Origin: Oscillospiraceae bacterium
GTDB taxonomy: Bacteria > Bacillota > Clostridia > Oscillospirales > Ruminococcaceae
DNA: 33,558 bases
Direction of reading: 5' to 3'
Assembly (NCBI GenBank): GCA_022787085.1
Contig: JALFVE010000030.1
Location: forward strand, 1 to 33,558
The notes below the pieces were generated by a model that worked only from the letters and a program-made list of their open reading frames with translations, was not told where the DNA came from and did not search any database. How positions within the stretch are numbered: position 1 is the first letter of the stretch; each line of letters opens with the position of its first letter. This document shows, piece by piece, positions 3,638 through 6,401 of the stretch. Position numbers and translations under genes: made by a program.

Positions 3638-4165
3638 TTACAGCTCTGCCGTCACTACCCTGCCCTCTTTGGCTGTCTTTTTCAGATCAATGATCCTCTG
3701 ATTTGCGCTGCCTCTGAATCTCAGATCAATACTTCTTTCTGCAAGGATAAAAGGACCGTCCACCAGGTAATCGCTGACCTTCAGAAGATCATTGTAACAG
3801 TTTTCGCCGTCTGCATTAGCCTTCAGAAATTCATAGGTATAACCGCTGAAGGTAATGATATCAAGCCCTTTTTCACGGATCATTGAACCGAGCCTTGAAA
3901 GCGCTTTTGCCTGACAAAAGGGCTCTCCCCCGCTGAAAGTCACTCCGTCAAGCAGAGGATTTGAAACGATCTTATCCATTATATCTTCTGTTGAGATCAC
4001 ATATCCCGCAGAAAAGTCATGAGTCTGGGGATTATGGCAGCCCTCGCAGCTATGAGGACAGCCCTGAACAAATACAGTAAGCCTTATCCCCGGGCCGTCC
4101 ACGATTGAGTCATCTGTTATCCCCGCGATACGCAATTCAGCGCAGTTATTGGTATCAGTGAGCAA
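3638..4165 (-). CDS. nrdG: Anaerobic ribonucleotide reductase activating protein (radical SAM)
   Basis: A 175-residue radical SAM enzyme. The cluster motif C-P-H-S-C-E-G-C (CxxxCxxC) comes after 'SIVDGPGIRLTVFVQG', followed by 'GVTFSGGEPF', the SAM-binding glycine motif. NrdG uses SAM and a [4Fe-4S] cluster to put the glycyl radical on NrdD. The start is a TTG at 4165 with AAAGGA nine bases upstream; it lies within the last codons of nrdD (11-base overlap). The first ten residues before 'LRIAGI' look like an extension relative to the usual N-terminus, where the family normally begins with M-R-I-A-G or similar. The protein itself looks intact, in contrast to its substrate NrdD. Confidence 0.93.
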   Translation of the reverse strand: MLTDTNNCAELRIAGITDDSIVDGPGIRLTVFVQGCPHSCEGCHNPQTHDFSAGYVISTEDIMDKIVSNPLLDGVTFSGGEPFCQAKALSRLGSMIREKGLDIITFSGYTYEFLKANADGENCYNDLLKVSDYLVDGPFILAERSIDLRFRGSANQRIIDLKKTAKEGRVVTAEL

Positions 4166-6401
4166 TTCTTCTTATCCTTTCATGAACATAGCTGTGCTCT
4201 TCCTCACGTCTGCCGCACTTGGGGCAGATATCGCCGATTATTCCCGTGTAGCCGCAGACAGGATCTCTGTCCACAGGGTGATTGATGGAGCCGTAGCCAA
4301 TGCCCGATTCCTTCATGCAGCGAACGATTTTTTCAAATGCCTCAAGATTGTTTGCAGGGTCTCCGTCCAGCTCCACATAGCTTATATGACCTGCATTTGT
4401 AAGCTCATGGTAAGGCGCCTCGATCTTGATCTTCTCAAATGCGCTGAGCTTGTAGTAAACGGGAACATGGAAGGAATTTGTATAATAATCCTTGTCGGTA
4501 ACGCCCTCGATTGAACCGAATCTTCTTCTGTCTATACGGACAAATTTACCTGCAAGGCCTTCGGCAGGAGTGGCAAGCAGTGAGAAATTCATGCCTGTTC
4601 GGATGGTTTCCTCATCCATACGCTGCCTCATTCGTGAAACGATCTCCATACCCAAAGTCCTTGCCTCCGAGGATTCTCCGTGATGACTGCCGATAAGAGC
4701 CTTGAGACATTCTGCAAGACCAATAAATCCCATGGAAAGGGTGCCGTGCTTTAATACCTCGCCCACAGTATCGTCGGGACCGAGCTTATCTGAATCGATC
4801 CACACACCCTGTCCCATAAGAAACGGATAATTTCTCACCCGCTTCTGCGCCTGAATACGGTATCTGTGCATCAGCTGCTCGCATACCATATCCATAACCT
4901 CCTCCAGGCTGTCAAAAAAGGCACCCACATTTCCGTTTGCCTTAATGGCAAGTCTGGGGAGATTTACCGAAGTAAAGCTGAGATTTCCTCTTCCCGTTAC
5001 GATCTCCCTCTCAGGGTCGTAATGATTTCCGATAACTCTCGTGCGGCAGCCCATGGTGGCTATCTCGGTATTATAGTCCCCCGCCTTGTAATATTTCAGA
5101 TTGAAGGGAGCGTCGATGAATGAGAAATTCGGGAACAGCCTTTTTGCCGAAACACGGCAGGCAAGCTTGAAAAGGTCATAGTTGGGATCCTCGGGATTAA
5201 AGTTTATTCCTTCTTTGATCTTGAAAATATGAATGGGAAAAATAGGAGTTTCGCCGTCTCCGATACCCGCTTCATTGGCAAGCAGAACATTTTTTATGAC
5301 CATTCTGCCCTCTGTGGAGGTATCCGTACCGTAATTTATAGATGAAAACGGAAGCTGAGCGCCCGCACGGCTGTTCATGGCATTTAGATTATGAATGAGA
5401 GCCTCCATCGCCTGATAAACCGCACGGTCGGTCTCACGGGAGGCTGCAGAACAGCAATAGGACTGGATACGTTCAGCCGTATCCTTGTTTGTAATGGCAA
5501 GGAGCTTTGGCATTTCAGCCTCTTTATAGCCGTTATTATTATCAAGAACGGGATAAATATTCTTTTCGGAAAAAATCTCTCCTGCAATTTTTTTTGCTGT
5601 TTCATTGCCGTTATCAAGACCGCAGAGCAGCTCAAAACAGCGAGCTTCGTTCTCAATGTACTTTTTTCTGTAGGTTTTGGCAGCACCCTGAGCCATGGCA
5701 TAATCAAAATTCGGAATACTCTGCCCTCCGTGCATATCGTTCTGGCATGATTCGATAGCGATGCAGGCAAGAGCCGCATAGGCTGAGATATCGTTGGGCT
5801 CTCTGAAATTACCCTGTCCCGATGAAAAGCCGTTTTTAAACAGCTTTATCAGATCTATCTGGCAGCAGGTAGCAGTAAGGGTATAATAGTCCATATCATG
5901 AATATGGATATCCCCTTCTTCATGAGCCTTAGCAATTCTCGGGTCAAGAACGTACATCTCGCAGAACTGCTTTGCACCCTCAGAGCCGTATCTGAACATG
6001 GTTCCCATGGCAGTGTCGCCGTTGATATTGGCATTTTCCCGCTTGATATCGCTGTCTCTTGCAGCCTTGAAGGTAAGGTCCTCATATATCTTCATCAGCT
6101 TGGTATTCATTTCACGGGAGCGTGTACGATCGGAGCGGTAGAGGATATAAGCCTTTGCGGTCTTAGCATGACCCTCCTCCACCAGCACCTTTTCCACCAG
6201 ATCCTGTATCTGCTCAACAGTAGGAATACTTTGGCTTCCGTATTTATCTTCGCACAGCCCGCACACCTTGACCGCAAGCTCCATGGAGGTATCATAATCG
6301 GTGCCTCCCACAGCCTGAGCAGCCTTATATATCGCTTTGGCGATCTTTTCAATATTAAAAGTATCTTTTCGTCCGTCTCTCTTAACGATATGAGTTATCA
6401 T
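4155..6401 (-). CDS. nrdD: Anaerobic (class III) ribonucleoside-triphosphate reductase, lacking the C-terminal glycyl-radical segment
   Basis: 748 residues from ATG 6401. An upstream in-frame GTG at 6446 is rejected because the promoter would leave almost no leader. An ATP-cone (residues 1-95, ITHIVKRDGRKDTFN) precedes the catalytic barrel, with C179/C180 in 'TATCCQIDL' and C452 in 'ATMGCRTRV' as probable active-site cysteines. A small zinc-site region follows (C716, C726, C729 in VCGYTGIIGDICPKCG). Known NrdD proteins then continue through 'ERIRR(I/V)' into R-x-x-G-Y, which carries the radical glycine, plus about 20 more residues. Here the chain is ERIRRIAH and stop. No G-Y element is found in the other two frames. 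Either the enzyme is inactive, is complemented in trans, or the sequence carries a deletion. Confidence 0.9.
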   Translation of the reverse strand: MITHIVKRDGRKDTFNIEKIAKAIYKAAQAVGGTDYDTSMELAVKVCGLCEDKYGSQSIPTVEQIQDLVEKVLVEEGHAKTAKAYILYRSDRTRSREMNTKLMKIYEDLTFKAARDSDIKRENANINGDTAMGTMFRYGSEGAKQFCEMYVLDPRIAKAHEEGDIHIHDMDYYTLTATCCQIDLIKLFKNGFSSGQGNFREPNDISAYAALACIAIESCQNDMHGGQSIPNFDYAMAQGAAKTYRKKYIENEARCFELLCGLDNGNETAKKIAGEIFSEKNIYPVLDNNNGYKEAEMPKLLAITNKDTAERIQSYCCSAASRETDRAVYQAMEALIHNLNAMNSRAGAQLPFSSINYGTDTSTEGRMVIKNVLLANEAGIGDGETPIFPIHIFKIKEGINFNPEDPNYDLFKLACRVSAKRLFPNFSFIDAPFNLKYYKAGDYNTEIATMGCRTRVIGNHYDPEREIVTGRGNLSFTSVNLPRLAIKANGNVGAFFDSLEEVMDMVCEQLMHRYRIQAQKRVRNYPFLMGQGVWIDSDKLGPDDTVGEVLKHGTLSMGFIGLAECLKALIGSHHGESSEARTLGMEIVSRMRQRMDEETIRTGMNFSLLATPAEGLAGKFVRIDRRRFGSIEGVTDKDYYTNSFHVPVYYKLSAFEKIKIEAPYHELTNAGHISYVELDGDPANNLEAFEKIVRCMKESGIGYGSINHPVDRDPVCGYTGIIGDICPKCGRREEEHSYVHERIRRIAH

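Follow-up and report, generated by a model that had tools for sequence, protein, structure and literature searches.

The stretch of DNA analysed here, hereafter the window, comprises 33,558 nucleotides from an Oscillospiraceae bacterium (GenBank assembly GCA_022787085.1, contig JALFVE010000030.1), and its subject of interest is nrdD, the gene of a class III ribonucleotide reductase (RNR), which lacks the glycyl-radical segment. The nrdD open reading frame (ORF; 4155..6401, minus strand) starts with the ATG at 6401 and encodes 748 residues that include an ATP cone (80.9 bits by profile), a catalytic barrel and a zinc-site region. It ends ...GDICPKCGRREEEHSYVHERIRRI-A-H-TGA with the stop codon at 4155-4157, the terminal segment (4155..4181, minus strand) being made up of ERIRRI (residues 741-746), A-H and TGA at the point where T-G-Y-L follows in relatives. 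An earlier note on this DNA had described the protein as intact through the zinc-site region and ERIRRI and then ending A-H-stop; the ORF and the profiles agree, since the protein spans positions 1-539 of the 562 of Pfam NRDD (PF13597; 634.5 bits) and 1-718 of the 746 of PRK07111 (1091.5 bits, cut-off 764). The near-complete coverage indicates that the missing part is only the last 25-30 or so positions. Intact relatives read ERIRRITGYLVG... at the position of the stop, which places the radical glycine second after RRI and bears out the note's statement that family members continue into the radical segment. Neither of the remaining reading frames over the junction contains a radical motif, as the note had also stated for G-Y, and one of them is nrdG.

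The latter gene (3638..4165, minus strand) encodes by profile the radical S-adenosylmethionine activase NrdG (132.1 bits against TIGR02491, cut-off 126.1), and its TTG start does overlap the nrdD stop. The odd N-terminal extension that the note attributed to NrdG is present with the called start; however, a second in-frame TTG lies at 4135-4133, from which the protein would begin MRIAGITDDSIVDGPG..., and the extension may therefore be merely an over-called start.

The catalytic residues of the truncated NrdD appear to be retained. In an alignment with the NrdD of Prevotella copri (8p23; residues mapped by eye, chain offset of 4 inferred), whose catalytic residues have the roles given in the accessible text of PMC11226230, there are counterparts of the radical initiator C452, the second cysteine C179, N480 (the formate-type Asn) and ENANINGD (the NxN flap). 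The Cys452 codon (5046..5048, minus strand; motif MGCRTR) is thereby aligned with the radical-initiator Cys416 of P. copri, and the same comparison suggests the role of the retained zinc-site region (4215..4256, minus strand; C716, C726, C729). The barrel and ATP cone recognised by profile, the Cys pair, the NxN flap and the activase NrdG are all those of a class III NrdD. What this chain lacks is the class III radical glycine (RxxGY), which the stop precedes.

The truncation is shared by all genomes of the genus in which it could be checked. Twenty genomes were sampled, including that of the window (G000, a draft of 56 contigs); many are incomplete drafts, and eight are called good here (at least 90% complete, at most 5% contaminated). 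The comparison with related NrdD ends that the earlier note had proposed gave the same truncated end in close relatives: the nrdD end is readable in 12 genomes, the window's included, and in 12/12 it stops at one place, 2-6 residues past one RI/RF/RP/RG position. In G003 and G009 only part of nrdD is present. The tails themselves are short and differ (IAH, IAE, IAN, IGAK, ISCCG, PVCDS, FVFREKR, FTNCC twice, ITCGQ, GCCN and ITTCG). A nrdG near to that of the window (E <= 1e-57) was found in 13 of the 20 genomes and in all eight good ones. The truncated nrdD is under strong purifying selection, with omega values of 0.023-0.071 (six pairs) against 0.025 and 0.050 for two intact pairs, by a simple Nei-Gojobori count of non-synonymous and synonymous changes in which the synonymous distance is often near saturation.

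In several truncated NrdDs the chain ends in a Cys pair (L007, L010, L157, L160 and L164, with SCCG, NCC, TCC, SCCD and SCCK), unlike in the closest relatives of the window. Such tails resemble the redox tails of class I and class II reductases. That they might stand in for the radical, or serve as a redox site, was considered and rejected because the tails are not conserved.

One of the readings offered in the earlier note, a radical domain provided in trans in the manner of YfiD and pyruvate formate-lyase (PFL), is strongly supported. The genomes were searched with a 52-residue protein (51 residues given) encoded beside a split nrdD in L050, from another family of the order. A stand-alone NrdD-type radical ORF was found in 18 of the 20 genomes of the genus (best E in each 2e-12 or better) and in all eight good ones. 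The short R-x-x-G-Y protein that the note had suggested looking for in the window's own genome is encoded at G000:C34:11583-11849 (plus strand), unlinked to nrdD; it has 88 residues (MNINVTGGEISKEELDAYIRHGEENYPGKKIVGIDIALDGDFVDLKYYFESVPFDRIRRITGYLVGTLDRFNDAKRAEVMDRVKHGTC) and carries the radical segment ...DRIRRITGYLVG... Over its C-terminal 32-36 residues it matches the NrdD models where the window's NrdD stops, so that the two chains cover the models in a complementary manner: 1-539 for NrdD and 533-562 for the small protein in NRDD, 1-718 and 709-744 in PRK07111. The RRITGYLVG motif is invariant in 24/24 aligned small proteins, that is in 24 of the 25 ORFs of the genus, L087 (RRITGYLTG) having been left out, and in 39/39 of another set. 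The small protein is itself conserved (omega 0.03-0.17 in ten pairs by the same count), and a stand-alone radical protein was found in each of the 25 genomes with a NrdD truncated as in the window (12 of the genus, 13 others).

The first 50 or so residues of the small protein gave no significant Pfam or NCBIfam match, the best off-target E value of this domain against Pfam being 0.014 (39 members), and none of the profiles tried from Pfam, NCBIfam and PHROGs spans the whole protein. The domain is predicted to fold as beta-alpha-beta-beta (predicted local distance difference test, pLDDT, about 73-82); its fold matches are insignificant (best E 0.23) and are mostly to ribosome hibernation factors. 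L071, L084 and L050 matched no GrcA model at E <= 1 and only NrdD models, with PF13597 and not PF01228 as the Pfam family. The small protein thus has the stand-alone glycyl-radical motif of a GrcA/YfiD without matching a GrcA model or having a PFL-type domain: it would work like a GrcA and is not a member of that family.

The window very probably contains the gene for the large chain in a two-component class III RNR, whose glycyl radical is carried by a separate subunit of about 88 residues encoded outside the window. From the computed gene structures, conservation and complementarity I infer the following course of binding, radical transfer and activity. NrdG would generate the radical on the small protein, at Gly62 within its RRITGYLVG loop. 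This loop would then enter the NrdD barrel at its open end, in the place otherwise taken by the covalent tail; from there the radical would pass to Cys452, and formate-type ribonucleotide reduction would follow. The N-terminal beta-alpha-beta-beta domain is probably a docking module.

Across the family, 134 of 198 genomes gave a radical-segment match, and a NrdD orthologue was found in 132 of these; NrdD was absent from 20/20 genomes tested out of the 64 lacking such a match. The 135 NrdD genes of the family comprise 68 intact ones, 51 adjacent splits, in which a short radical gene lies just downstream of a truncated NrdD, and 16 of the window type, in which the only radical gene among the matches listed is remote and has the N-terminal domain (3 of the 16 are from the window's genus). 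Thirty-four of the 135 were at first unresolved; 33 of their ends were then read together and that of G048 separately. Of the 51 adjacent splits, 17 were assigned by reading the ends directly and the rest by joining coordinates, the small gene in G179 lying about 2.1 kb downstream. Truncation near the end point seen in the window extends to 13 genomes of other genera, and 23 of the 25 window-type tails could be placed by pattern, 22 ending 1-6 residues past the RI position and one 20 residues past it. Adjacent-split NrdDs end earlier, before ERIRRI, with new tails, and their downstream radical genes lack the N-terminal domain. The adjacent arrangement, seen in L050 and in the 51 family genes, is a second, different way of splitting NrdD. 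In G075 (L197, C417), a NrdD ORF holds two tandem copies of the radical segment and is a possible intermediate towards splitting.

Evolutionary changes were counted on a quick, midpoint-rooted FastTree tree built from 96 NrdDs without their tails (L020 and L021, which are short, and L193, missed by the pattern, were left out). On well-supported branches the window-type label changes at least five times and the adjacent split at least seven times, a change being a gain or a loss; G052, G074 and G151 have extra matches beyond those listed and may be mislabelled as "intact" or "intact plus spare". In one sister pair (support 100) G102 is truncated whereas G184 is intact and has the small protein; likewise, G041 and G213 are truncated whereas their sister G146 is intact with the small protein (support 94). 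An intact NrdD together with a remote small protein bearing the N-terminal domain occurs in at least 23 sampled family genomes. Judged from the gene structures and the tree, the split arose repeatedly across the family.

These cases suggest how the small protein could have originated. According to the part of PMC8683613 available, oxygen cuts PFL at its radical glycine, and NrdD is said in the accessible part of PMC12288474 to be cut by oxygen likewise. The small protein probably served at first to replace the lost end of NrdD molecules cleaved by oxygen at the radical glycine, much as GrcA/YfiD does for PFL; with this part in place, NrdD could drop its own radical segment at that point and would then depend on the small protein. 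Given where oxygen cuts and where the tails end, the gene would now permanently encode about what oxygen damage makes. The small gene of G198 holds an in-frame stop and may be decaying. The small genes of G190 and G198 seemed at first to be orphans lacking a NrdD; this idea was rejected, as other NrdD types were found there.

Promoter motifs were computed by scoring upstream regions against consensus letters that I take to be those of the NrdR box, for 90 of 91 nrdD genes and 45 of 59 radical loci (six loci with no radical ORF by pattern, three duplicates and five with unclear starts were omitted). Box pairs scoring at least 24 of 32 lie upstream of 50/90 nrdD genes (0.03 expected by dinucleotide resampling), of 15/45 stand-alone radical genes (0.00 expected) and of 20/76 genes in a partly overlapping named set, against 3 of 516 other upstream regions and 0/70 phage loci. 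Those three, and 13/14 other genes with a strong single box, are divergent from a radical gene or nrdD and hence share its promoter. Upstream of the small gene of the window's genome, putative boxes matching at 14/16 and 13/16 positions lie at -83 and -50, with a spacing of 33. As described in the accessible text of PMC12051234, NrdR acts on paired 16-bp boxes to repress RNR genes, and spacers of 14-17 bp bind well; the putative box architecture of the small gene fits that of the NrdR regulon.

Many phage contigs (L290-L369), some of about 240-250 kb, carry a small NrdD-type radical gene. In IMG/VR, 363 relatives were found and 80 kept, in which 79 radical-motif ORFs were read, all of them short frames, with a pattern that could also pick up intact NrdD genes; among annotated phages 14 records matched, two of them over 80% of the query and both unannotated. 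Computed neighbourhoods of the small gene include a tape measure and a major tail protein (L306), a terminase (L299), RecT (L305) and a clamp loader (L296); proteins of L301 and L318 gave no matches, and those of L311, L312 and L360 belong mostly to families of unknown function. In five contigs (L319, L329, L333, L334 and L366) nrdD, nrdG and the small gene lie within a few kb, and nrdD ends before the radical glycine in all five. The small gene overlaps nrdD in L329, L333 and L334 (L329 and L333 being nearly alike), and an endolysin gene separates the two in L319. In six of eight phage records searched whole, which may be fragments, the small gene was found and no NrdD barrel. Some copies of the genus (e.g. 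L077) look by eye like phage ones (L348, L368) and lack NrdR boxes.

The wider proposal, to which I give even chances, is that these small proteins form a new family, a NrdD-type glycyl-radical subunit with a docking domain and NrdR control that would make RNR modular: a spare part against oxygen damage that several times became obligate as NrdD lost its radical tail at the site of oxygen cleavage, and that many phages would use to load the host NrdD with fresh radical during infection.

The two-chain assignment must be weighed against other explanations of the truncated gene. It might be a dead or regulatory paralogue, a second, intact NrdD making the deoxyribonucleotides and being the one that the small protein repairs. 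The search for a second nrdD that the earlier note had proposed did find one in the window's genome (G000:C18:6056-8250, L004), intact, with a 731-residue frame, the motif ARRTCGYIG and its own nrdG. This second type occurs in only some genomes of the genus, among them three of the eight good ones (G000, G007 and G008), and G013 (86% complete) has it together with the small gene, the window-type nrdD not having been found there. However, the other five good genomes (G002, G005, G011, G017 and G019) show a single class III barrel, that of the truncated NrdD, together with stand-alone radical proteins, and the class I/II barrel PF02867 was found in 0/20 genomes of the genus (control match in 11/14 known genomes), so that in those five the split pair is the only reductase found. 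Moreover, the small protein shares its motif, RIRRITGYLVGTLDRFN, with the first NrdD type and not with the second, which reads ARRTCGYIGTQFWNQGR. Outside the genus, 11 of the 13 window-type genomes yielded no other class III barrel, the search there being for class III. By model coverage, and not from nrdD ends read letter by letter, the split pair also occurs in Ruminococcus bicirculans 80/3, Ruminococcus sp. FC2018 and Ruminococcus sp. YE71; the first two have a second intact NrdD, and no other class III reductase was found in YE71. With the low omega and the retained catalytic residues, these results make a dead or regulatory paralogue improbable, and the inactive enzyme envisaged in the earlier note very unlikely.

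About equally improbable is a purely stress-time, spare-part role of the small protein in all lineages, with the truncated NrdD drawing its radical from a residue of its own tail or from another protein. The coexistence of the small protein with intact NrdDs would fit this, as would the Cys-rich tails (SCCG, NCC, CQC) and the position of the small gene, which in three close species, as in the window's genome, lies between an apparent DEAD-box helicase gene and hsp20-groES-groEL, all recognised by eye (L394, i.e. G000:C34:7000-17000, and L395-L397). Nevertheless, the closest relatives of the window end AH, AE, AN and GAK, with no Gly-Tyr or Cys, and the remote small protein accompanies every window-type NrdD, nrdG being retained.

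An assembly error, a frameshift or a one-off deletion at 4140-4200, the first and last of which the earlier note had entertained, is conceivable for a single draft genome and yet refuted by the same truncation in separate assemblies throughout the genus, in other genera and, by model coverage, in the three Ruminococcus strains. Scarcely credible is a joining of the pieces into a normal NrdD during or after expression (trans-splicing, intein or programmed bypass), for which phage nrdD genes split by introns or inteins (accessible part of PMC3653736) offer a precedent. The two genes are not linked, and the small ones mostly possess a start and a ribosome-binding-like sequence of their own; the conserved domain of about 50 residues matches no intein, and both chains contain the RIRRI segment.

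Several observations do count against the two-component enzyme or the history proposed for it. Window-type nrdD was not found in 6/20 genomes of the genus (G001, G004, G006, G010, G013 and G014), none of them good, and four of the six have the small gene. Since the window's genome has the second intact NrdD, the split enzyme may be dispensable there. The radical loop of the lone small protein is poorly modelled (block pLDDT 47-54). As to control by NrdR, 30/45 stand-alone radical genes have no strong box pair, and the window's nrdD promoter has only a weak match (11 of 16). Finally, G188, which with G108 is sister to the window's genus, has an intact NrdD and no small protein among the matches listed, at odds with an origin as a spare part.

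If the two-component reading holds, its interest is several-fold. In the class III enzymes of the literature surveyed, as far as its accessible part goes, the radical is in the active-site chain; here it would be on an exchangeable subunit, and radical transfer between chains would become testable by electron paramagnetic resonance. RNR is essential, and the NrdD case bears on the remark, in the available part of PMC8683613, that it is tempting to speculate on such parts for other glycyl-radical enzymes beyond PFL. The findings also offer natural intermediates between a repair part and an obligate subunit and bring to light a family of phage genes whose products may influence how the host makes DNA precursors. 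The split is likely to escape annotation, as none of the profiles tried spans the small protein and truncated NrdDs resemble errors.

The genus has a split PFL as well: pflB stops short of the radical segment, and in 7/8 loci examined it is adjoined by a small radical gene (split loci L030-L042). In the window's genome (G000:C48:12239-15218, L035 and L036) pflB ends ...IPNTSDNDR and is followed by a GrcA3-type gene (RVSGYAVNF), whose product passes the GrcA3 cut-off (NCBIfam NF038360), and then by pflA. That this GrcA3 also serves NrdD was considered and rejected, since a separate NrdD-type protein exists. GrcA3 thus belongs to another split glycyl-radical enzyme of the same genomes; unlike the NrdD-type protein, which matches no GrcA model, it is PFL-type in sequence and encoded between pflB and pflA. 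A literature search, made mostly without subscription papers, returned stand-alone parts for PFL only (YfiD/GrcA and Y06I) and no description of a NrdD-type one. According to the accessible text of PMC8683613, GrcA/YfiD of E. coli and Y06I of phage T4, known from bacteria and a phage, are likewise small proteins with a C-terminal copy of the radical segment of the large enzyme, and the activase acts on the part, as would be expected here. In the present case, however, the copy is of NrdD and not of PFL, and the N-terminal domain is conserved and predicted to be beta-alpha-beta-beta, whereas that of YfiD is disordered. YfiD is a repair option, while here the part would be obligate in the many genomes whose large enzyme has no radical segment. 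With the canonical NrdD/NrdG of P. copri, as presented in the available part of PMC11226230, the window's enzyme shares the ATP cone, barrel, catalytic cysteines, formate-type Asn, zinc-site region and NrdG, yet the radical Gly711 of P. copri is in the same chain and that of the window type is not. An RNR in two chains is also known in NrdJa/NrdJb of Pseudomonas aeruginosa (accessible part of PMC9669993), which is, in contrast, a class II enzyme with no glycyl radical, its second chain carrying C-terminal domains.

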